A stretch of DNA of 64,000 nucleotides from Gammaproteobacteria bacterium (GTDB lineage: Bacteria; Pseudomonadota; Gammaproteobacteria; Pseudomonadales; Pseudohongiellaceae): assembly GCA_028825335.1 (NCBI GenBank), contig JAPKAI010000003.1, positions 1-64,000 on the forward strand, in the 5' to 3' direction. The notes under the pieces are model-generated. The model worked only from the letters and a program-made list of their open reading frames with translations. It did not search any database and had not been told where the DNA came from. Both the position numbers and the translations under genes were made by a program. Shown piece after piece: positions 5,990 through 49,651 of the stretch; position 1 is the first letter of the stretch; every line of letters begins with the position of its first letter.

Positions 5990-6484
5990 ATGCCTACCAA
6001 GAAAACCCATAATGCGAGATCGAGTTCAGGCTTAAAGACATTACTTATCTTGGGACTTCTGACACTTTCACCGCTGACTATCGCGGGCGAATACACAGAC
6101 GAGCTATCAGCATGTCTTCTCGGCACTACATCCGAGGAAGACAAACGCAGCTTGGTCAAATGGAGGTTCACTGCAATGGCCCTGGCCCCTGCCGTTGAGG
6201 AGATAACGGGCGTATCAGTCTCTGCACGCGACCACGCAAATCGAGAAATGGCCCAGCTGATAATAAAACTGCTAAGCAGGGCCTGTTTTAACGAAACCAG
6301 ACTAGCGCTTAAGAATGAGGGCAGCACTGCATTACAGACGAGCTTTGCAGCTCTTGGACAGGTTGCTGCTAAGAATTTATTCTCAGACCCAAACGTGGTG
6401 GCTGGCCTAGCAAGTCTTGAAACGTACATTGGCGCCGAAGATTTAAAAATCGCCTGGAATTTGGGCAATGAAAAAACAGATTAG
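5990..6484 (+). CDS. Secreted hypothetical protein
   Basis: In-frame ATG at 5990 of ORF 5825..6484 gives signal peptide TLLILGLLTLSPLTIAGEYTDELSACLLG; lies between two DUF6644-like genes. Confidence 0.65.
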   Translation: MPTKKTHNARSSSGLKTLLILGLLTLSPLTIAGEYTDELSACLLGTTSEEDKRSLVKWRFTAMALAPAVEEITGVSVSARDHANREMAQLIIKLLSRACFNETRLALKNEGSTALQTSFAALGQVAAKNLFSDPNVVAGLASLETYIGAEDLKIAWNLGNEKTD

Positions 6485-14847: not shown

Positions 14848-15660
14848 GTGGGCATGGGCAATCTCACGACGCAGTTGCGGCACTTGGCGACAACGGCACT
14901 TAGCGGCTTGTTCTTAGCTGCAAGCGGCAGTTTTGCCGAAGATGCGGGCAATCTCTACAATACCAATTTTGATATCAATGCTGGCCTCAGATATTTCGAG
15001 CGGCAGTGCTCGCGTTGCCACGGCTTCGATGCGAAGGGCAACGATGAGACTGGCGCGCCAGACCTTACGGGTAGATTGGCCCGCGCCAGCTCCGATGTTG
15101 GTATATACAACATCATCCGCACTGGCATTCCCGGAACCGCCATGCTCCCTGTCGCAGCTGACCTACCTGACGCCCAGGTTTGGCAGCTAGTGGCCTACAT
15201 AGGTTCCCTAAGCACCAATCCTGCGAACATCGACTTGCCTGGCTCGGTCACCGGTGGTGCCCGCCTGTTCACAGACAAGGGAGACTGCAACAGCTGTCAC
15301 ATGATCGACGGGCAAGGCGGCCGACTAGGTCCCGACCTTTCTAGGATTGGTGAACAACGCAGCCCAGAAGAATTACTTAGCGATATGCTCAACCCCCATA
15401 CAGACGTTGCCCCGCGCTGGTGGACAATGCGCGTAACAGACAACAATGGCACTGTTAGAGAGGGGCTGCGCATGAATGAAGACAGCTTCTCATTGAGAAT
15501 AATGGATGAAGATTCGAATCTTTGGTCTTACCCGAAGAATCAGATTGCATCCTTCGAACGGCTCGAAACGTCTACCATGCCGAGCTATACACAGACTTTG
15601 TCCGACAGCGAAGTAGATGACCTTGTGGCCTATCTATTTTCTCTGCGAAAGGAGAACTAA
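14848..15660 (+). CDS. Secreted di-heme-type c cytochrome
   Basis: CSRCH and CNSCH heme motifs; N-terminal signal region. Confidence 0.88.
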   Translation: MGMGNLTTQLRHLATTALSGLFLAASGSFAEDAGNLYNTNFDINAGLRYFERQCSRCHGFDAKGNDETGAPDLTGRLARASSDVGIYNIIRTGIPGTAMLPVAADLPDAQVWQLVAYIGSLSTNPANIDLPGSVTGGARLFTDKGDCNSCHMIDGQGGRLGPDLSRIGEQRSPEELLSDMLNPHTDVAPRWWTMRVTDNNGTVREGLRMNEDSFSLRIMDEDSNLWSYPKNQIASFERLETSTMPSYTQTLSDSEVDDLVAYLFSLRKEN

Positions 15661-15662
15661 GT

Positions 15663-17300
15663 ATGAACAAATTATCTCTATTGCTATGTGGCATTTTTCT
15701 AGCGTTACCTCTTCAGGCTCAGGAAGATCCGTTTCAGACTGTTATAACACCTGCGTTTAGTCCAGTGACATGGGAGCGCCTCGTTAATGCTCAGAGTGAG
15801 CCTGAGAACTGGATGATGTACTCAGGCACTCTGGACAGTCAGCGCTACAGCCGACTCGATCAGATCAACACGGGCAATGTGACAGAATTAGAAATGAAAT
15901 GGTCGTATCAGATACCCGTGATCGACCGCGCGGAAACAGTGCCCACTGTCGTCGATGGCATCATGTTTATCACTGAGGCACCTAGCAATCTGACTGCAGT
16001 TGACGCGCGAACCGGTCGAGTATATTGGCGTTACGACCATGAGCTACCAGAAGATTTACGTATTTGCTGCGGAAGAAATAATCGAGGTGTAGCCATACTT
16101 GGTGAAACACTTTTCATGAGCACTCTTGATGCCCACCTCGTTGCTATCGATGCGCGTACGGGAAATGTTCTCTGGGACGTCGAGGTAGCCGACTACGAAG
16201 CCGGCTACAGTAAGACTGCCGCGCCACTAATCGTAAAAGACAAAGTTGTTACAGGAATCGCAGGCGGCGAGTTCGGCATACGCGGCTTCATCGACGCCTA
16301 CGACCCCGTTACTGGCGAACTTGAGTGGCGCACCTATGCCATCCCGGGCCCGGGAGAGCCTGGCAACGATAGCTGGTCCGGTGACTCATGGAAAACTGGA
16401 GGTGCAGCTACATGGATCACCGGCTCCTACGATCCAGACCTGAATCTCATCTACTGGGGCACGGGCAATCCCGGTCCGGACTGGAATGGCGATGTTCGCC
16501 TCGGTGACAATCTCTATTCCGATTCGGCTCTAGCTCTGAATGGGGACACCGGCGAGATAGCGTGGCACTTCCAATTTACACCTCACGATGTGCATGACTA
16601 TGATTCGATCCAGGTGCCGATTCTGGCCGATATCGAATATCAAGGCAGCACGCGCAAGGTAATGATGTGGGCCAACCGCAATGCTTTTTTCTACACCATC
16701 GATCGCGAAACGGGAGAATTTTTGGAAGGAGAAGCTTATGCGACGCAGACTTGGGCGCAGGGATTAGACCCGAATGGTCGCCCCATTCCTACTCCCGGCA
16801 TGGCACCAACCTATGAAGGTATTTTGGTCTCCCCTCCTATCGTCGGCGCGACCAATTGGTACTCGCCCGCCTATAGCCAGCAGACAGAATTATTCTATGT
16901 CACCTCTTTCGATGGCGAACAAGAGTTCTTCAAGCGTGACGAGGACTACGAGGAAGGCGAGCGCTTCACGGGCGGTGGCGGTCGCTACAATCAGCCGATG
17001 GATGCATTCCATAGCTCCATTCGGGCAATCAATCCTGCCACTGCACAAATCGAGTGGGAATTTCCCATCATGCCCCGCTCCTCAGCAGGCATAACCACAA
17101 CCGCTGGCGGTATCGTATTCACCGGTAGCGCAGATGGTTATTTCTTCGCACTAGATGCAGCCAGTGGCGAAGAACTCTGGCATATCTCTCTAGGCGCGCG
17201 AGTGCATGCAGCCCCTATGACATATGCTATAGACGGACAGCAATTCGTAACGATCGCATCCGGCAACGTGGTTTATACCTTCGGGCTAAAAGAAAACTAA
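15663..17300 (+). CDS. PQQ-dependent alcohol dehydrogenase (quinoprotein)
   Basis: Signal peptide; vicinal CC (RICCGRNNRG); YWGTGNPGPDWNG; HDVHDYDS; W-motif propeller repeats. Confidence 0.92.
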   Translation: MNKLSLLLCGIFLALPLQAQEDPFQTVITPAFSPVTWERLVNAQSEPENWMMYSGTLDSQRYSRLDQINTGNVTELEMKWSYQIPVIDRAETVPTVVDGIMFITEAPSNLTAVDARTGRVYWRYDHELPEDLRICCGRNNRGVAILGETLFMSTLDAHLVAIDARTGNVLWDVEVADYEAGYSKTAAPLIVKDKVVTGIAGGEFGIRGFIDAYDPVTGELEWRTYAIPGPGEPGNDSWSGDSWKTGGAATWITGSYDPDLNLIYWGTGNPGPDWNGDVRLGDNLYSDSALALNGDTGEIAWHFQFTPHDVHDYDSIQVPILADIEYQGSTRKVMMWANRNAFFYTIDRETGEFLEGEAYATQTWAQGLDPNGRPIPTPGMAPTYEGILVSPPIVGATNWYSPAYSQQTELFYVTSFDGEQEFFKRDEDYEEGERFTGGGGRYNQPMDAFHSSIRAINPATAQIEWEFPIMPRSSAGITTTAGGIVFTGSADGYFFALDAASGEELWHISLGARVHAAPMTYAIDGQQFVTIASGNVVYTFGLKEN

Positions 17301-34148: not shown

Positions 34149-34982
34149 CTATTCTGCATCTGCGCCCTTGCGCAGATGGCCGTAGATGAGCTCCTCTGTA
34201 AATTCAACACATTTGAATTCAAGAATCTGCATGTTTTCATCTAATCTTCTGTATAGCGGGAACTTCAACGTCCACGCTTGGGTATACACATTGGGGTCCT
34301 CTAGTGTTGCCTCGTACATGAGGGTGTTAGGCCCCACATGTGTGTAACGCTCAGTTACCCGCAGCGCATCGCTGTGATGATTACCCGCTCGATCTAACCA
34401 TGTGTCAGGCACTTGATCAGTTACATCAATGACCAAGCTATCTCCTTCGAAATGCCCGCGAGAATGGCCCATCCAGCTAAATATTGGCGCCTCGAAATCG
34501 GGACGATCCATATAAACAATACGGCTTGCACTCGCAAATTCGTAGGCCATAACGACATGGTCTGGAGACTGAATGATTTGGAAGGGGAACGGCAGATAGG
34601 TGGCTCTCGGCACACCTGGCATATAGCACTTTACCACTGGGTCCAGCGCCAACCAGTCCGCCCTATTCTCCTGCTGCTTCGCTCGGGCCTCGGAAGTATA
34701 AGGAATACTTCCACCCTCTACGATGCCCAGCCCAGCAGGAATTGCCCCTATCGCCCCTAATTCAACGAGTGGGCTAAAATCTGCCGCATGTGGCTCTATA
34801 TTCCAATGCGCACTGCCAATTGCCTGCCAAATACCGTTGAAATCTGGTTTCTGGTCAGCGGTTCTTGGCACAAAATCACCCTCTGCGGCTACGCTGATGG
34901 AGCTCAGCATTACTAAAAGTGATGCCGCTAGCGGTGCATAAAAGCGCGATTTTAGACCGTTTTTTGCCGAATAATCTCTCAT
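34149..34982 (-). CDS. Secreted hypothetical protein
   Basis: Signal peptide ending SISVAAEG; KPDFNGIWQAIG motif; no known catalytic motif. Confidence 0.75.
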   Translation of the reverse strand: MRDYSAKNGLKSRFYAPLAASLLVMLSSISVAAEGDFVPRTADQKPDFNGIWQAIGSAHWNIEPHAADFSPLVELGAIGAIPAGLGIVEGGSIPYTSEARAKQQENRADWLALDPVVKCYMPGVPRATYLPFPFQIIQSPDHVVMAYEFASASRIVYMDRPDFEAPIFSWMGHSRGHFEGDSLVIDVTDQVPDTWLDRAGNHHSDALRVTERYTHVGPNTLMYEATLEDPNVYTQAWTLKFPLYRRLDENMQILEFKCVEFTEELIYGHLRKGADAE

Positions 34983-35359
34983 TACTAACTCCTATATCCT
35001 TGTTTTTAACTACCATATCACTTTCAGGAGAGCAGCCAAATCCTAAATAGCAGTAATATTGCGAACCCTACGGTTTCGTGTTGACAGCAGTGCTACGCTC
35101 AGCTAAATATTCAACATCGGGAATACTCAGCTTCTCAAGCAATTCTGGAGCTAACAGGTGCAAACCTTCGTGCTGAAATGGAAGGTTTCATCGATCCGCT
35201 TCTTACCTAAGTATGATTGCCATATAATGAATAGAGCCTCACAAAGAAGGACTGGATAAACTGGAAACACTAGCCAGACTCGAAGAAACAGCGCTAAGCA
35301 TACTGCTGCGGGAATCAGGATTCGCGTTCTTCAGTTCACTGACCCTGCATTCGCTCGCC

Positions 35360-35749
35360 ATGGCTTTCGTCGTAGGAATAAATTTCGCGGTCGCATTGCG
35401 ACTCTTGGGCGTCGCGCCTCGCCTAGAGATATCAGCCCTAAGCCGTTTCTACGTAATTCACTGGTACGCTGCAGCCCTGATATTCATCTCTGGGGCCGCC
35501 CTGCTGCTCGCGTACCCGGCCAAGGCACTTACCAATCCAGTGTTCTATATAAAGCTTTGTGCAGTAGTTATTGGGCTGATGATAAGCAAACGCATTCAAA
35601 GTACATTCTCAAATAAACCTGAGGTCTCTATCGACCGCACCTCCATCAAACTCGCCTATCTCTCTATCGCGCTATGGATAATTACGCTAACCGCTGGGCG
35701 ATTCCTCGCCTACACCCACAGCACACTTCTTGCATCGCGATTTTATTGA
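35360..35749 (+). CDS. DUF6644-like membrane protein; true start probably upstream
   Basis: Open frame and family-like sequence extend upstream to at least 35261 (LETLARLEETALSILLRESGFAFFSSLTLHSLAMAFVVGINFAVALRLLG), but with no ATG/GTG/TTG after TGA at 35228. Confidence 0.6.
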   Translation: MAFVVGINFAVALRLLGVAPRLEISALSRFYVIHWYAAALIFISGAALLLAYPAKALTNPVFYIKLCAVVIGLMISKRIQSTFSNKPEVSIDRTSIKLAYLSIALWIITLTAGRFLAYTHSTLLASRFY

Positions 35750-35755
35750 GCGGCC

Positions 35756-36262
35756 ATGATTGATTTTCTACTTAATTTTTCGCAGGCAACAGGCATTTAT
35801 GCCTTCATGAATTCGCCTTGGGGTTGGCCTATCACTGAGTCCATACACTTCTTCGGCCTGTGCTTGCTAATCGGAACCGTCGGCTTATTCGATCTACGAA
35901 TGATGGGTTTTGCGAAGGAGATTACACTATCCGAGCTGCACCGATTAATACCCATAGGAGTAGCCGGCTATTTATTAAATGTGATTACTGGCACCATGTT
36001 TCTAAGTACCGCCCCAGATCAATATCTCTACAACCCTGCTGTGCAATCAAAACTATTCTTCATGCTGATCGCCGGCATTAATATGATGTTTTTCTATGCG
36101 ACCACAGCCGGAGATGTTAAGTCTGGGGCCTCTGCATCACCCCTGATTTTACGCGCCAAGATCATCGCCGGAATTTCCCTTGCGTGCTGGTGTGCTGTAA
36201 TAGTTTGCGGCCGGCTTATAACTTACTATCGCCCTCCCTATCATTGGTGCTTCTGGTGTTAG
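35756..36262 (+). CDS. DUF6644-like four-TM membrane protein
   Basis: WPITESIHFFGLCLLIGTVGLFDLRMMGFA ... NPAVQSKLFFMLIAGINMMFFY. Confidence 0.75.
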   Translation: MIDFLLNFSQATGIYAFMNSPWGWPITESIHFFGLCLLIGTVGLFDLRMMGFAKEITLSELHRLIPIGVAGYLLNVITGTMFLSTAPDQYLYNPAVQSKLFFMLIAGINMMFFYATTAGDVKSGASASPLILRAKIIAGISLACWCAVIVCGRLITYYRPPYHWCFWC

Positions 36263-36412
36263 TAGGGAAGTTAGGTCCTCGTGCCAATTGAATTCCCGGC
36301 TGATCTGAATTAGTCTTCCTGCGCTTGTTGAGGCATTGATTAATTAGCACAGCAACAAATCTATAGCCCCGCTCTCACCGTAGCTTATATATTAACTTTT
36401 CAGTGGCTCAAA

Positions 36413-37186
36413 ATGAAACTTCGATCAGAACACTCCATCGGGATATTTCACATCCGCATCAACTGGCTATTTGCAGTCTGCGTGTTTATGACTGCCACCG
36501 CCTTTGCCCGCCTCGGCTTGTGGCAACTTGATCGAGCTGCAGAAAAGGTCGACGCACAGGCGGCTCTGTTAATTGAATCCAGCTTGAATGCCGCCCCGAT
36601 CGAGAGCATCCCCGCAGGGCATTTGCATCGCGCAAACCCAGAATTACAGAACCAACATGTCTCAATGAAGGGAGAATTTGTGAATGACCGGGCTATCCTC
36701 TTATTGGCCGAGTTCTTTCAGGGGATGATTGGCTATGGAGTGGTGACGCCATTTCGGCTCGAAAGCAACGATCAACTCATTCTGGTCAGCCGGGGCTGGA
36801 CCACGGGTATCCTGCCGCCGGATACCCCGCCGGATCTGCGCCCTGTATCCGGACCAGTGGAGATTACCGGCCAGATCTTCGTACCTCCCGAAAATGCGCG
36901 GGTCCTTGCTAGCCAGATAGATGCCTCGGTCTGGCCATTACGCATGCGCAGCCTCGAAATCGACGTAATTGCCGATATTATCGATGAGCCGTTGTTTCCA
37001 TTCGAGATTCGACTCACTGAAGATCAAGATGGCGTGCTTGTGCGCCATTGGCCCGCCGTGAATGCAGATGTTAACCAAAACTTATCCTATTCAGTTCAAT
37101 GGTTTAGCCTCGGTTTGTTAGTTCTTTTCGCAAGTTTACTTGCCAGCAGTAACCTCTGGGCTCTGCTACGCAGCAGCAAGCCTTAG
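36413..37186 (+). CDS. SURF1 family protein
   Basis: FARLGLWQLDRAAEK; ILVSRGWTTG; WPAVNADVNQNLSYSVQWFSLG. Confidence 0.9.
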   Translation: MKLRSEHSIGIFHIRINWLFAVCVFMTATAFARLGLWQLDRAAEKVDAQAALLIESSLNAAPIESIPAGHLHRANPELQNQHVSMKGEFVNDRAILLLAEFFQGMIGYGVVTPFRLESNDQLILVSRGWTTGILPPDTPPDLRPVSGPVEITGQIFVPPENARVLASQIDASVWPLRMRSLEIDVIADIIDEPLFPFEIRLTEDQDGVLVRHWPAVNADVNQNLSYSVQWFSLGLLVLFASLLASSNLWALLRSSKP

Positions 37187-37427
37187 AACGGCTATTTCTC
37201 CCTTTTTTAACCCTAGAACTGACTGATTTCGGAATATTACGAAAAATGAACTCGTTTTCAGGCTATTAGCAGAGTTGAGTTATTAATTATTCGACTTATT
37301 GCGCGTCCAGAAAAATTCAACTACTAGCCGAATAATGCTATTGTTCGCTAGTTATTTGATAAGCACTGAATTCGATTTTTACTATCAATAGATTTACGAT
37401 CAGACGAGTTATGAGGAGAAGCAAACT

Positions 37428-38867
37428 ATGCGAATAATTTCAGCCAAATCAATGCTGAGCGGTATGGCAGTAGCAGCAGCAATGTCCATTTCTGGTGTAT
37501 CACTGGCGCAATCCAGCGAAGTCACATTCCACAAGGATATTGAGCCAATTCTGCAGCGCAGCTGTCAGAACTGTCACCGAGACGGTGGCGCCGGGCCTAT
37601 GCCTCTAGTGACTTATGATCAAGTTGCTCCATTCGCCGGTTTGATCGAGTACAAGACAGCTCTACGTGACCGTGCTGGCGCCATGCCTCCGTGGTACATG
37701 GAGAAGGACATCGGTATACAGGAATTCAAAGATGACCCCTCTCTAAACGATGAAGAGTTAGCACTAATTTCAACTTGGGCACGCAGTGGCACACCTAAGG
37801 GCGAGACGGCTGACGCTCCACAAGCTTTAGTTTTCGATGACAGCTTGAAGTGGAAGGCCGGTGAGCCTGACTTGGTTGTTGTCATGAATGAAGTCACAAA
37901 ACTAGCCGGCACGCCTGACTGGTGGGGTGAGATCGATTACATTCCTACAAATTTGGAAGAAGATCGCTACGTTAAATCTGTCGAAGTCGTCGAAGTAAAC
38001 GATGTCAACAATCAGGCCGGCACTGGCCGAGATACTGTCGGTGGCGCGTATATCTTCCACCACATGATTTGGGGCACAGCGATGCTTGACGAAAATGGCG
38101 AGCGTGGTTCTGCAATTTCGCTTCCATGGCCTGTACATGAAGTTGGCAGAAACGCTGACATCTTCGACCAAGATGCTGGCCGCCTTCTGAAGGCTGGGTC
38201 ATCCATCGTTTCCGACTCCGTGCATATGCACTCCAACGGTCGTGATACGACTGCTCACATGGAAGTAGGTTTCCGCTTCCATCCCGTTGGTTATGAGCCC
38301 AAGTATCAGACCGCTTTTATCGGTTTAGGCAACGGCGTAGACATCAGCATTACTGGAAACGCCAAAGACCAGGAACTTCACGCCTATACTGTGCTCAACC
38401 AGCACACCAAGGTTGTGACCTTCGAACCACACCTGCACGCTCCAGGTGAACGCATGTGTCTCGAGGCAATATGGGGCTACACCGTAGAAACCCTTTCTTG
38501 CGTAGGCTACGACCACAACTGGGTCCGCGGCTATCCTTACGCAGAAAACGCAGCACCCCTGCTGCCCAAGGGCACTATCCTGCACATCGTCGGCTACATG
38601 AATAACACGGAGACTAACCCGAACGTTCCTGATCCACGCAACTGGCAGGGTTCTGGTAACCGCTCTGTGACGAACATGTTCATCGATTTGGGCATTCGCG
38701 TTACTCTAACTGATGATCAGTTCTTCGAAGCTATGGAAGAAAGACGTCAGGCACTCAATCTTGGCCCAAACGATCACGTGATCGGCTGCCCTCTTTGCTT
38801 GGCACCTCTAGTTGCTCCTGTAGCCGAGGCTGAGAGCACCGACGCAAACGACGTTGCTGGCAATTAG
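37428..38867 (+). CDS. Secreted protein with c-type heme motif and Cu type II monooxygenase-like (DBH/PHM-like) C-terminal region
   Basis: Signal peptide; CQNCHRDGGAGPMP; VSDSVHMHSNGRDTTAHMEVGFRFHP; VTFEPHLHAPGERMCLEA. Confidence 0.7.
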   Translation: MRIISAKSMLSGMAVAAAMSISGVSLAQSSEVTFHKDIEPILQRSCQNCHRDGGAGPMPLVTYDQVAPFAGLIEYKTALRDRAGAMPPWYMEKDIGIQEFKDDPSLNDEELALISTWARSGTPKGETADAPQALVFDDSLKWKAGEPDLVVVMNEVTKLAGTPDWWGEIDYIPTNLEEDRYVKSVEVVEVNDVNNQAGTGRDTVGGAYIFHHMIWGTAMLDENGERGSAISLPWPVHEVGRNADIFDQDAGRLLKAGSSIVSDSVHMHSNGRDTTAHMEVGFRFHPVGYEPKYQTAFIGLGNGVDISITGNAKDQELHAYTVLNQHTKVVTFEPHLHAPGERMCLEAIWGYTVETLSCVGYDHNWVRGYPYAENAAPLLPKGTILHIVGYMNNTETNPNVPDPRNWQGSGNRSVTNMFIDLGIRVTLTDDQFFEAMEERRQALNLGPNDHVIGCPLCLAPLVAPVAEAESTDANDVAGN

Positions 38868-38886
38868 TTGAGGCTGTAGTAGAAAC

Positions 38887-39819
38887 ATGAGCAAACATAC
38901 TAGTGAAGCAATCAGCAGGGTAAACACCCTGCTGATTGCAGCTTTTTTATTAGGTACTTCGAGTGTGGTTGTCGCTGATACTTTTCAGTATGGGCAACAT
39001 GTTGAACCGGCCTACGAGGGCTGGCGCCCCAATGCAGATGGCACATTCAGTTTCATGTTTGGTTACATGAATGAAAATTGGACAGAGCAGCCGGATGTAG
39101 TAATTGGAGACAGTAACTCTTTCTCTCCAGGGGATGCCGATCAAGGTCAACCAACCCATTTCCTCCCACGAAGAAATCGCTTCACTTTTGAAGTCGTCGT
39201 TCCCTCCGACTGGGGCGAGCGCGAATTGGTTTGGACGCTGAACGTCAACGGAATCGAACGCAAAGCGTATGCGACACTCAAAGACGATTACCTTGTAGAT
39301 AACATGGTCATCGCGTCTGAAACTGGCTCATTGGGTGCTGGTACTAGCAGCCCTGAATCTCGAGCCAATATCGCACCTACTGTGACAATTCAGGGTGATG
39401 ATATACGTACTGCACAGGTTGGCGAAGAGATCAGCTTCGTTGCTCAAGTTGCAGATGACGGTCTTCCTGCCGCTCGCAGAGAGAGCACCATCGAAGCAGA
39501 CGCCCTCATGCGTCGGATGATGCGCCCTCCAACACGCATCACAGTTGGCAAGGTGAATGGTCTGTTCTTATCTTGGAACAAGTACCGTGGACCAGGCAAT
39601 GTAACTTTTGATCCGCCGATGCCTAAGCCTTGGGAAGACACGCGAACCTCAGCAAACTCACCTTGGGGTGCACTTTGGTTGCCGCCCGAGGCACCCGAGG
39701 ATGGCTTACACGAAATCACTGTAACTTTTGACGAGCCAGGGACATATATACTCTGGGGTCGTGCCGATGATGGTGGTCTCTATCACGACAGCTACATCAC
39801 AGTAAATGTTAGCGACTAG
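38887..39819 (+). CDS. Secreted hypothetical protein, tandem paralog 1
   Basis: Signal peptide then YGQHVEPAYEGWRPNADGTFSFMFGYMNENW...; extensively alignable with 40149..41117. Confidence 0.8.
   Translation: MSKHTSEAISRVNTLLIAAFLLGTSSVVVADTFQYGQHVEPAYEGWRPNADGTFSFMFGYMNENWTEQPDVVIGDSNSFSPGDADQGQPTHFLPRRNRFTFEVVVPSDWGERELVWTLNVNGIERKAYATLKDDYLVDNMVIASETGSLGAGTSSPESRANIAPTVTIQGDDIRTAQVGEEISFVAQVADDGLPAARRESTIEADALMRRMMRPPTRITVGKVNGLFLSWNKYRGPGNVTFDPPMPKPWEDTRTSANSPWGALWLPPEAPEDGLHEITVTFDEPGTYILWGRADDGGLYHDSYITVNVSD
38908..38948 (+). terminator. Terminator-shaped hairpin inside a signal-peptide coding region
   Basis: GCAATCAGCAGGG-TAAACA-CCCTGCTGATTGC (13-bp perfect stem) followed by AGCTTTTTT. 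Confidence 0.7.
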
Positions 39820-39983
39820 CTAATAGACTACAAAAAGTGGGAACATATGCCCACTGCTGCCCCGTAAATCCAGCAGGCAGGGATCCAAGGATCGGACTTA
39901 CCTCATTCATGCCTTGGCGCAAAAGGCAAGAGGTCCAAAACCCGAACTGTCCCAGTCATTAGATAATTACTTAATGAACTTAT

Positions 39984-40012
39984 GGGACACCAATAACAAC
40001 GTGTCCCTTTTT
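39984..40012 (+). terminator. Rho-independent terminator between tandem paralogs
   Basis: GGGACAC-CAATAACAAC-GTGTCCC followed by TTTTT. Confidence 0.75.
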
Positions 40013-40148
40013 ATTACCAAATATTTGGCACGCTTTCGATACGACAAAATCATTACTGATACTGCCAGAATTGATCCGAGTCAACATGACGAGCTACGCA
40101 AATCATTAATCGTGGACCCGACAATTAGTAATAACGAACAGCAAGAAA

Positions 40149-41117
40149 TTGTTACAGGGGAAAGGCATGAATCGATATTCGAAAAACAAAATCAATTGGC
40201 TAGCTGGATTTATTCTCTTTTCAACTCTTGGCATGCAATCGGCTTCGGCGCAACTTAGCTATCGCTACGGTGCTGAAATCGAACCGGGCTATGAAGGCTG
40301 GCGCCCTAATGATGACGGGACATTTAGTCTGCTTTTTGGATACATGAATGAGAATTGGGAAGAACAACCCGACGTCGAGGTTGGCGACAATAACTTTTTT
40401 ACACCAGGTATAGCCGATCGAGGCCAGCCTACCCACTTTCTGCCAAGGCGCAACAGGTTTACCTTTGAAGTGGTGGTACCTTCTGATTGGGGCGATAGGG
40501 AACTAGTCTGGACCATTACCCACAATGGCGAGACAAACAAAGCCTACGGAACCTTAGTCCCCGATTATCTGATAGACAACATGGTGATTGCATCGGAAAC
40601 CGGATCTTTGGGCGCAGGAACCAGCAGCCCTGAGTCGCGCGCAAATATCGCTCCTGTTGTAAGCGTCAAAGGTGAGGCAGTTAACGGCTCGTTAGTCAGA
40701 AATGCTAGGGTTGGCGAAGAAGTCTTGCTCATCGCACAGGTCGCAGATGACGGCTTGCCAAAGCCGCGCGGTAGAACTGTCACACTACAAACCGAAGCAA
40801 CTATTCAGGAACGCATGATGCGGCCACCACGTCGCACCACTGTTGGTAAGACCAACGGCCTGTTCCTCTCTTGGAATAAATTCAGAGGCCCTGGAGAAGT
40901 TAGCTTCGAACCTGCTCAGGTAAAACCCTGGGAAGATACACGGACATCAGCCAATTCACCTTGGGGAGCTCTTTGGGTCCCTCCAGCGATTCCCGATAAT
41001 GACATGTACGAGGTAAAAGCGACATTCACAGAACCAGGTGTCTATATTCTTTGGGCGCGGGCTGACGATGGAGGCCTTTATCACGATCAGTATGTCACCG
41101 TGAATGTAAGCCCCTAA
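40149..41117 (+). CDS. Secreted hypothetical protein, tandem paralog 2
   Basis: Signal peptide; same GTFSLLFGYMNENW, PTHFLPRRNRFTFEVVVPSDWG and KPWEDTRTSANSPWGALW blocks as 38887..39819; probable start at internal Met 40167. Confidence 0.8.
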   Translation: MLQGKGMNRYSKNKINWLAGFILFSTLGMQSASAQLSYRYGAEIEPGYEGWRPNDDGTFSLLFGYMNENWEEQPDVEVGDNNFFTPGIADRGQPTHFLPRRNRFTFEVVVPSDWGDRELVWTITHNGETNKAYGTLVPDYLIDNMVIASETGSLGAGTSSPESRANIAPVVSVKGEAVNGSLVRNARVGEEVLLIAQVADDGLPKPRGRTVTLQTEATIQERMMRPPRRTTVGKTNGLFLSWNKFRGPGEVSFEPAQVKPWEDTRTSANSPWGALWVPPAIPDNDMYEVKATFTEPGVYILWARADDGGLYHDQYVTVNVSP

Positions 41118-41133
41118 AGTTTAGGCTCTAGGT

Positions 41134-41838
41134 TTAGCGAGGTTCGGCGGGAGAGTCTAGTATTTGTTCCGCCTGCCCATCTTTCAGCTTAATCGTAAAA
41201 GGTGGATCGTAACTTGGCTCATCCTGATTGAGGATGATATTGGTACGCGGCGGCCTAACAAAACGAGTATTAGGACCAGCACTTATCGAATCTAATACCA
41301 GTGCTTCTGCCGCTTTAATCACCGAAGGCGCCTCGGCTTCCGGGCCGAATGAAAAACTAAAACTCCCTCTTATAAGACGATCATTCGCAGCCAGAATAGC
41401 CCAGTCAGCGGTATAGTATGTAGCCTCCGTCAACTCAGGAATATTCAATTGGAATTTCTCTTGTATCGTGGGGTCGTAACGAAAATCAATATCCACCCAG
41501 TCTCGCAACTCATTCCGAAGAGTCAATTTGACTAGGCGCACATCATAAGGGAACTCCAATTGGAGTTGGTCTGGGGCTTCGAGCAAGACACTATCATCTG
41601 CAGGCGCGGTTTCTGTTTCTATGCTTATTCCTGTAATATCCTCACCTTGAAGAGATAGGCCAATCTGAGAACGCTGTGCTACGGCAGGATGCCATAGGCC
41701 TAGTCCTAGGAGAGCAATACTTAGTATCTGAAAAGAGTATGAATTCAATGCTATTCCACTTCTAGTCCCGCCCACAGCAACAAAAAGCATTACCAAGACA
41801 ACGAAAAACTGATGACGAAGAATATCATCGCCGATCAT
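41134..41838 (-). CDS. Secreted CopC-like domain protein
   Basis: Signal region; TAPADDSVLLEAPDQLQLEFPYDVRLVKLTLRNE...YYTADWAILAANDRLIRGSFSFSFG (CopC-like fold signature). Confidence 0.6.
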   Translation of the reverse strand: MIGDDILRHQFFVVLVMLFVAVGGTRSGIALNSYSFQILSIALLGLGLWHPAVAQRSQIGLSLQGEDITGISIETETAPADDSVLLEAPDQLQLEFPYDVRLVKLTLRNELRDWVDIDFRYDPTIQEKFQLNIPELTEATYYTADWAILAANDRLIRGSFSFSFGPEAEAPSVIKAAEALVLDSISAGPNTRFVRPPRTNIILNQDEPSYDPPFTIKLKDGQAEQILDSPAEPR

Positions 41839-41896
41839 ATTTGGGAAATACGACGGCGAGATTCAGAAGCGGATTACAGGAGTTAAACGGTAAATA

Positions 41897-42694
41897 ATGC
41901 AGGATATAAATCTAGGAGACATACTCACAGGACTCGAGAATAGCGACTCAAACAGCACGCGATTTAGTGAGAACTGGTCACAAGGGCGTTCTGCATTTGG
42001 TGGCTTATCAGCCGCGTTTGCGGTAACTGCAATGCGCAAAAAACTAGCTCAGTCGCAGACCATTCGCTCCCTAATGGTTTCCTTTATTGCCCCCGTAATC
42101 CCCGGGGAGGTCAATGTAGAAGCAAACGTTCTTCGCCAGGGCAGGAATGTCACACAGTGCAGCGCGAACGTGATTTCAGGCGGGCAGATCGCTCTACAAG
42201 CCATGGCGGCATTTGGCAATCCTCGCGAAGCGTTCAAGCCAGCCACTGCAGGCAATAAGAAATTGCCAAACCGAGATAGCGGCATATCTTTCAGTGACAA
42301 CGCCAAACGCCTGCCACCTTTTCTTCAGTATTTCGATGGCTGCTGGACCGACGGCGGCATCCCATTTTCTGGGAACTACAAACCTTTTTTAAATATGTGG
42401 GTACGACACAAACAAGATGTCTCTAGCTTTCCTGTCGAGAAACTAGTCGCCATAGCTGATATCCCACCCCCAGTTCTGCTCTCCCATTTTGAGAAGCCTC
42501 CCGTACCTGCCAGCTCATTGAGCTGGTCTCTGGAATTTATCGAAGCACCAGAAGAGTTAACAAGCGAGTGGTTCTATCTGGAATTCGAGGTGGAGGCCGC
42601 CGCCGATGGCTATACACAACAGTCGGGAAGAATTTACGATGAACTGGGTCGCTTGGTTGCTCTTACAAGGCAATCCATGGTCTATTTCGGTTGA
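41897..42694 (+). CDS. Acyl-CoA thioesterase-like (double hot-dog) protein
   Basis: NWSQGRSAFGGLSAAFAVTAMRKKL; SLMVSFIAPVIPGEV. Confidence 0.85.
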   Translation: MQDINLGDILTGLENSDSNSTRFSENWSQGRSAFGGLSAAFAVTAMRKKLAQSQTIRSLMVSFIAPVIPGEVNVEANVLRQGRNVTQCSANVISGGQIALQAMAAFGNPREAFKPATAGNKKLPNRDSGISFSDNAKRLPPFLQYFDGCWTDGGIPFSGNYKPFLNMWVRHKQDVSSFPVEKLVAIADIPPPVLLSHFEKPPVPASSLSWSLEFIEAPEELTSEWFYLEFEVEAAADGYTQQSGRIYDELGRLVALTRQSMVYFG

Positions 42695-42754
42695 GAAGTG
42701 ATCAAAGCTTACCTCATTCGAAACACTCTATTGCCAATAATCTAATAGAGAGCG

Positions 42755-43309
42755 ATGAGCATTTTTGCTAAGATTAAGGCTATGAACCCCAGTAGACGGA
42801 TTTCGCAGTCGATGAACCCTCAAGCATACTACAAGAAAGTAGGTGCACTGCTGTTTGGCGTGTTACTTGTGCTGCTAGCTTCTACCACATCGCTAGCCCA
42901 ACATGGTCACGGAGTTCTGACCCCCGGGGTAACCTTCCCTCCTGATGATTCTGTACTCACTGAATCTCCGCAGATGATTACCATGAGCTTTCGAGTAGAT
43001 GTGCGGCTGCTAAAATTGGCACTTTATACCGCAGATGGCAAATGGATCAGCATCAACTTTGAGTATGACCCCTCACGAATGAGTCACAGCTTTGTCTTGC
43101 CCATTCCTGGTGAATTGCCCAAGTCGGAGTACTATACAGCGCGCTGGTCAGTAACCGATGACAGGCGCGGGCTGGTAAACGGCGAGTTCAATTTTGCATT
43201 TGGCTCTGGTGCAATACCACCATCCGAGACGATCGAGGCGCTAGTGAGTGACAAAGTGGAATCATTGCCTTCGACAGGCTCCTATCGATATCAAAGAGAA
43301 ACTAATTAG
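42755..43309 (+). CDS. Secreted CopC-like protein
   Basis: Signal peptide; TFPPDDSVLTESPQMITMSFRVDVRLLKLALYTADG...YYTARWSVTDDRRGLVNGEFNFAFG. Confidence 0.72.
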   Translation: MSIFAKIKAMNPSRRISQSMNPQAYYKKVGALLFGVLLVLLASTTSLAQHGHGVLTPGVTFPPDDSVLTESPQMITMSFRVDVRLLKLALYTADGKWISINFEYDPSRMSHSFVLPIPGELPKSEYYTARWSVTDDRRGLVNGEFNFAFGSGAIPPSETIEALVSDKVESLPSTGSYRYQRETN

Positions 43310-48289: not shown

Positions 48290-49213
48290 CTACATCTGAT
48301 GCCCTGCAGGGCCTACTATCGTAGATAAGTAGGACGTGACAACGAGTATGACCACTGCAATTGCCAGCTCGTAGCGAATAGATCTCTGCAACTTGACTCT
48401 ACTGCCACTGCTAATCAACACTGGCACCAACATCAGCTTATTCATGGCAGCGACTCCTAACATTACCAATACCAGAGTCAGCTTCAGCGACAAAGCCAAG
48501 CCGTAATCTGAATTAATTAAGGTCATGGGAGACTCAAGCAACTCGTATAACATTACCCCCCCACCCAGAAAAAGTGCGAAGAGGATCACAATCGCGTTAT
48601 CTCCGAATCGTTTTAATGCTTTCTCAAGGACATCAATATCCACGCTTCTACTCAATTGCAGAAAGGGATAGAGACAGCCTATCCATAACGCGAATGCAGC
48701 GAAGTGCATCACTATTGATATCTGCGCCATTAGACTTAAAACAGACACATGGCCCGTTATTCTATGAGAAAAAGCCAATGCCAGCAGAGCTACTAACTGC
48801 AGGAGAAACAATAATCGCGTTAGGGGGTTCTTGAGATCAATATTCGAGCGTTGGAGCTTCTTGAGAACGATCACGCTACTCACGCCTGCAAGTATAAACG
48901 CGAGCAACCGTAGCAAGGTGACATCACCAAGGCCTGTACCGAGTAATATCGATATCATCCCCCAGTCAAACATACCTGGCAGACCGCTATCGTTTATCAA
49001 CCCCACTTGCACAAGGAAACCCAGGAGGGCCCCGTGAAAACCAATAACCGTGCCGACAAAGATATAGGAGAAGTTTGAGAACAGCAGAGCTCTATCTGCG
49101 TTTGAGTAGCGCCAAGCACTCAGGCAGCCTCCAGCAATACTGAAGGCGCCGACGTAGAGAAGTAATTTAGCTAGGAGGCTTGCTAGCTCCCAAATGCCAG
49201 GGAGTATAAACAT
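48290..49213 (-). CDS. copD: CopD family copper-resistance membrane protein
   Basis: Eight-TM-like protein; HRITGHVSVLSLMAQISIVMHFAAFALWIGCLYPF; next to CopC. Confidence 0.82.
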   Translation of the reverse strand: MFILPGIWELASLLAKLLLYVGAFSIAGGCLSAWRYSNADRALLFSNFSYIFVGTVIGFHGALLGFLVQVGLINDSGLPGMFDWGMISILLGTGLGDVTLLRLLAFILAGVSSVIVLKKLQRSNIDLKNPLTRLLFLLQLVALLALAFSHRITGHVSVLSLMAQISIVMHFAAFALWIGCLYPFLQLSRSVDIDVLEKALKRFGDNAIVILFALFLGGGVMLYELLESPMTLINSDYGLALSLKLTLVLVMLGVAAMNKLMLVPVLISSGSRVKLQRSIRYELAIAVVILVVTSYLSTIVGPAGHQM

Positions 49214-49231
49214 CGAGTTGTCTATTTAAAA

Positions 49232-49651
49232 TTAATGGCTGTTGCCTGCAGATTCGCCAGTATGTTCTTCAGTGATACTAGGATCGACAGTAAAGCTATA
49301 GCTATCGGCTACTGTGTGACCGTCTTCGCCGATTACAGCCCAGTTAACGGTGAACGCACCCGGATGCATGCCCGGTGTCTCGATCATAAAGGCATTCTTA
49401 GCTTCAGTATTACTCTCAAAATTAGTTGGCATCTCATGCCCAACACCCATCAACTCCAGCTTCACTAATTTAACAGGCCCATTAAATGTTAGATTGATAT
49501 GCGCCGGACCTTGTTTAATCATCGCCCCATCACCTGGCATAGCTTCTGTCAGCGCAGTGTGTGCAAAAGCAGTCGCGGAAATCATCAATGTAAAAAGAGC
49601 GCAAACCACGAGTCGCGATGCGGTCCAAAGTGTGAATTGTGAATGCTTCAT
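49232..49651 (-). CDS. copC: CopC copper-resistance protein
   Basis: AHTALTEAMPGDGAMIKQGPAHINLTFNGPVKLVKLEL...PGAFTVNWAVIGEDGHTVADSYSFTV. Confidence 0.93.
   Translation of the reverse strand: MKHSQFTLWTASRLVVCALFTLMISATAFAHTALTEAMPGDGAMIKQGPAHINLTFNGPVKLVKLELMGVGHEMPTNFESNTEAKNAFMIETPGMHPGAFTVNWAVIGEDGHTVADSYSFTVDPSITEEHTGESAGNSH

Follow-up and report, generated by a model that had tools for sequence, protein, structure and literature searches.

We analysed a 64,000-nucleotide stretch of DNA (the window) from a marine member of the Pseudohongiellaceae (contig JAPKAI010000003.1, assembly GCA_028825335.1) and focused on the genes A to J within it (Table 1). At the centre of this locus lie E, whose predicted product is exported and joins a mono-heme cytochrome c domain to a PHM/DBM-type copper monooxygenase of two domains, and F, which encodes a secreted protein of immunoglobulin-like (Ig-like) architecture. 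The original prediction, drawn from the letters of this DNA alone, had offered as one hypothesis a periplasmic copper/heme-dependent oxygenase encoded here; the predicted fold of E, its conserved ligands and the co-occurrence of E and F support such an oxygenase with a conserved secreted partner family, and every gene named in the prediction is found in the stretch. The order A-B-C-D-E-F-(G)-H-I-J is retained in dozens of Pseudohongiella/OM182-type genomes. Among the best 80 of 398 F loci on contigs of named genomes, to which all counts out of 80 refer, each gene is present in 43 to 55 loci, and G in 16. Because the whole order recurs in dozens of related genomes, the locus is not a chance arrangement; conserved co-occurrence was one of the two tests that the original prediction had set itself.

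Table 1. Features of the locus (window coordinates).
Feature	Position	Strand	Description
A	34149..34982	-	secreted 'DFNGIWQ' protein, no family; divergent from B
B	35261..35749	+	DUF6644-like membrane protein, CTG start
C	35756..36262	+	second DUF6644 membrane protein
D	36413..37186	+	SURF1
E	37428..38867	+	predicted exported cytochrome c - PHM/DBM-type copper monooxygenase fusion
F	38887..39819	+	secreted two-domain Ig-like protein, 19 bp after E, no named family
Hairpin, terminator-like	38908..38939	+	within signal-peptide codons of F
G	40149..41117	+	tandem paralogue of F
H	41134..41838	-	CopC-domain protein without canonical CopC copper ligands
I	41897..42694	+	acyl-CoA thioesterase (4HBT_3), conserved neighbour
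J	42755..43309	+	CopC-domain protein; mature N-terminus with His (QHGHG), no DGH motif
CopD (48290-49213) and canonical CopC (49232-49651)	48290..49651	-	outside the range 34149-43309

PHM and DBM are animal copper enzymes that need ascorbate and make peptide hormones and noradrenaline. When the AlphaFold model of E (mean pLDDT 77.6; 24 sequences) was compared with the PDB using Foldseek, the 31 best matches were all human dopamine beta-hydroxylase or PHM, at a probability of 1.00, the best single match being chain 4zel_B of DBM (E = 5.8e-8). The copper ligands are nearly invariant among 116 homologues: H211 and H266 of CuH are kept in 115 and H212 in 114, while H335 and H337 of CuM are each kept in 113 and M417 in 114. 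Their order, HH..H..HxH..M, is the one in which PHM carries its CuH and CuM ligands. Homologues alignable with E across these ligand residues exceed the curated cut-off of PF03712 (Cu2_monoox_C). At the N-terminal end, the heme residues C46, C49 and H50 are kept in 114 of the 116 homologues and the distal M86 in 115, giving E the CxxCH motif and distal methionine of a mono-heme cytochrome c; the cytochrome family PF13442 is matched by 24 of 24 family members, the match of E itself falling below the cut-off. A signal-like sequence at the N-terminus suggests that E is exported. The original description of E as a secreted CxxCH protein with a copper-monooxygenase-like region is therefore backed by fold, ligands and intermediate homologues despite the missing Pfam match, and the structure check for copper and heme sites came out in its favour: the predicted fold matches PHM/DBM, with the six copper ligands and the heme residues all conserved.

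F has no Pfam family match. Its model (pLDDT 83) predicts two Ig-like domains, and our guess is that its role is structural or substrate-binding. G is 66% identical to F and confined to a subset of relatives, making the two the tandem secreted paralogues originally described. E lies within about 1.2 kb of 24 of the 25 F genes sampled across the order, and is also present at 77 of the 80 F loci; one of the other three sits at a contig edge. The window's genome alone holds at least seven E-F pairs (contigs C134, C81, C157, C14, C26, C53 and C21). In the samples searched the distribution is narrow: F occurs in 9 of 295 genomes of the order, every one of them from the window's family, and in one of 399 genomes of the phylum sample, the window's own. 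In these samples F was found only in the family possessing the short type of E. No plasmid-borne copy of E or F was found. Over 90 pairs, E and F protein distances correlate at 0.977, and we conclude that the pair was duplicated as a unit.

Several results weigh against an enzyme of the PHM/DBM kind with a dedicated partner. E alone has no Pfam copper-monooxygenase match, even at E ≤ 1, and sequence profiles of E and of its long homologues reached no PHM or DBM chain in the PDB. The TM-scores of the E model are low, at 0.3–0.4 by query and at most 0.58 by target; a different placement of the copper domains and the extra cytochrome domain of the model are the probable cause. Since E does not exceed the PF03712 cut-off, we file it as a diverged relative at the level of fold and not as a member of the Pfam family. 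Searching the PDB with the F model returned generic Ig-like folds only, none of them informative, and the F family has no conserved His or Cys, for which reason we rejected F as a metal protein. The pairing has exceptions: two of the 80 loci (L098 and L126) carry F directly after SURF1 without E, the E of L042 has no adjoining F, and the F of L084 has no E. Finally, within this locus type the co-divergence of E and F (0.82) is matched by that of F and the SURF1 control (0.81), and therefore reflects species descent and is not evidence of contact. Co-divergence as proof of an E-F interaction was discarded on these grounds.

A terminator-like hairpin lies in the start of F, with a 14-bp stem, a 4-nt loop and a T-rich tail (AGCTTTTTTA). 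Of 49 loci of this type, 26 have a stem of 12 or more pairs in the 110 bases following E, compared with 2% of shuffled sequences; for the other E-F type the figure is 1 of 23 loci. The stem sequences diverge widely with the pairing kept, as tabulated from loci selected for having a stem. The hairpin may terminate a share of the transcripts beyond E, thereby setting the E:F ratio.

Three layouts are found among the bacterial relatives of E: cytochrome c plus copper domains, as in E; redoxin plus cytochrome c plus copper domains, the long form; and separate genes. Two sister-genus genomes represent the last, with stand-alone PHM-like copper proteins in tandem beside a separate redoxin–cytochrome c gene, four of them in L173 (5367–10970) and three in the aligned part of L174 (6995–11667). 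Modules that form one protein in some genomes and neighbouring genes in others usually cooperate. The cytochrome and copper modules show this pattern, and on the simplest reading the copper sites receive their electrons from the cytochrome, which we infer takes the place of ascorbate. A long-form protein is also encoded in the window's genome (L169, 7366–9054), and in it the HxH motif of CuM reads RxN (RARMN). Judged by this motif, one copper site of that protein appears to have been lost.

The fold, the ligand and heme conservation and the E-F linkage are computed properties; we infer metal content, the direction of electron flow, binding between E and F, and hydroxylation, in the following outline. 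E would be exported, with one heme bound covalently in the N-terminal cytochrome c domain and two coppers held by the PHM/DBM-type domains. Electrons would pass from the periplasmic cytochrome pool to the heme of E, then to CuH (H211, H212, H266) and on to CuM (H335, H337, M417), the built-in cytochrome standing in for the ascorbate of the animal enzymes. O2 would be activated at CuM, and a small organic substrate would be hydroxylated at one of its C-H bonds. F would be an exported Ig-like protein dedicated to E, either binding it or presenting the substrate, and the duplicated E-F pairs would probably act on different substrates. We assign this reading, an E-F module working as a periplasmic oxygenase along these lines, a probability of roughly 0.7.

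The neighbours of some E-F copies bear on the chemistry. A PQQ-dependent alcohol dehydrogenase stands beside three of them (L050, L051 and L172, the last a quinohemoprotein), and a fourth (L043) adjoins an FMO-type flavin monooxygenase. Such neighbours hint at hydroxylation followed by alcohol oxidation: where the PQQ enzyme adjoins, the hydroxylated product would be oxidised further. Elsewhere in the window (14848–17300), a cytochrome c gene adjoins a PQQ alcohol dehydrogenase of the same family as those in L050 and L051. That PHM and DBM are the closest solved folds might suggest a bacterial peptide-amidating enzyme resembling PHM. PHM works together with peptidyl-amidoglycolate lyase. The scanned proteins around E-F pairs include no recognisable lyase of this kind, however, and multiple diverged copies do not suggest a single peptide reaction; we regard amidation as very improbable. 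We would give even odds to a broader proposal, in which PHM-type domains that draw electrons from a built-in cytochrome c, together with an obligate Ig-like partner, form an undescribed class of self-sufficient bacterial copper monooxygenases. This class would have expanded among marine bacteria of the Pseudohongiella/OM182 type, where its periplasmic members would oxidise many dissolved organic compounds.

The gene adjacent to the pair raises a different possibility. D matches SURF1 at 104.9 bits against a Pfam cut-off of 23.4, as originally named, and adjoins in 52 of the 80 loci. The E-F pairs of the sister genus have no SURF1 beside them; heme A synthase (CtaA/COX15) is instead close to the pair in all six genomes of that genus, for example at 6110–7096 of L045. 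Both neighbours would be explained if E were a PHM-fold copper/heme redox protein that oxygenates no small molecule and serves respiration as an accessory, delivering copper or electrons to a heme-copper oxidase. CopC-like proteins, which occur near E-F at both kinds of locus, would fit that role as well. The genomic evidence points elsewhere. D is the sole SURF1 of the window's genome, SURF1 is likewise single in two congeners, and in these three genomes of the genus COX1 lies on other contigs than SURF1; consistent with the original remark that the stretch encodes no oxidase subunit, the one COX1 match of the window's genome is on a different contig. Its single copy, the remote COX1 and its absence beside E-F in the sister genus lead us to assign SURF1 to an aa3-type oxidase encoded elsewhere, which it probably serves. 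Other E-F copies have no oxidase-assembly neighbours, seven diverged E-F pairs against one COX1 match in a single genome argue for substrate diversity, and both copper sites are conserved, CuM included. A respiratory accessory role is unlikely on this evidence, but oxidase-assembly genes (SURF1 and CtaA) beside E-F in two genera are a coincidence that we cannot explain, and they keep this alternative alive at low probability.

H and J exceed the CopC cut-off (PF04234, 23.3 bits) with 31.9 and 30.8 bits. Of the Cu(II) ligands expected in CopC, a His at the mature N-terminus and a D-x-H motif, H has neither, and J likewise has no DGH. The original call of two CopC-like proteins stands as far as family membership goes and fails for the canonical copper ligands. 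By comparison, the CopC beside CopD keeps the DGH motif, and this CopD-CopC pair is likely the copper-handling pair of the neighbourhood. The original prediction had further proposed that maturation factors of the oxygenase are encoded alongside it. Because SURF1 is a single copy with COX1 elsewhere, and because H and J lack the copper ligands of CopC, we rejected SURF1 and the CopC-like genes as maturation factors of E.

Both DUF6644-like proteins are present as predicted, C scoring 28.0 and B 23.8 against a cut-off of 27. We corrected the start of B from the ATG at 35360 to a CTG at 35261. At the aligned position 35 of 43 relatives likewise have CTG, and the others have TTG, ATG, GTG or ATT; because it varies among start-type codons, as expected of a start codon, the alignment makes it almost certain that B begins at this CTG. 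Three DUF6644 gene pairs lie within 80 kb of one contig (window 5427–6997 and 35261–36262; C134 78728–79820). Protein A has no Pfam or NCBIfam match and is a conserved neighbour in 43 of the 80 loci.

How far the larger gene order belongs to the E-F module can be judged from the other copies. Most remaining E-F copies are without A-D and occur in different settings: some adjoin an apparent pnp and a B12-radical-SAM-type gene (identities read from the sequence), and those of the sister genus have genes for heme A synthase, a CopC-like protein and a regulator of the AraC type nearby. A, the DUF6644 genes and SURF1 are tied to E-F at this single locus type, and sizeable gaps separate C, D and E. 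The gene order could accordingly be frozen synteny of one family, with E and F as a functional pair and A-D and H-J as unrelated neighbours. That A-D and H-J join E-F mostly here, that the C-D-E gaps are wide and that co-divergence with SURF1 equals that with F all speak for this view. Against it speak L061, where an A-type gene and a DUF6644 pair lie close to a long E homologue of a distant family, L160, where they lie close to a further E-F pair, and the CopC-like genes near E-F in the sister genus. We put its chances somewhat above even. It is compatible with a periplasmic E-F oxygenase and denies only the larger 'locus'. The surroundings of E-F are conserved, otherwise ordinary neighbours, and SURF1, the DUF6644 proteins and A are not demonstrated parts of the module.

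The E-F module of the PHM/DBM kind is real and, as far as the searched literature shows, undescribed: we found no paper on such a fusion of cytochrome c and copper monooxygenase. A study of North Sea Gammaproteobacteria reports monooxygenase-rich genomes in the Pseudohongiellaceae and a sister family and never mentions copper (PMC8371827). Compared with PHM, E shares the two-domain beta-sandwich fold, the ligand order HH, H, HxH, M and the two copper sites; it differs in being bacterial, in its N-terminal cytochrome c, in its partner F, in having no recognised lyase partner, and in an identity of about 8–10% in the structural match. With DBM/DBH, the source of the top PDB match, E likewise shares the fold. 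DBM carries a DOMON domain and no cytochrome c and uses ascorbate as its donor, features that set it apart from E. Among bacterial proteins, E resembles the redoxin–cytochrome c–Cu2_monoox_C proteins (for example L058 and L168), several of which exceed the PF03712 cut-off. They share the cytochrome c and copper domains of E at about 30% identity; unlike E, they possess an extra N-terminal thioredoxin-like domain and are not paired with F. CopC resembles H and J, which exceed its cut-off but are without the DGH motif of the canonical protein. If our reading is correct, marine bacteria would carry out C-H oxidation outside the inner membrane, powered by the respiratory chain, and the reductant question of the PHM/DBM enzyme class would become testable. 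Many copies per genome, a dedicated partner and a cytochrome c of its own would then set the bacterial branch apart from its animal counterparts.

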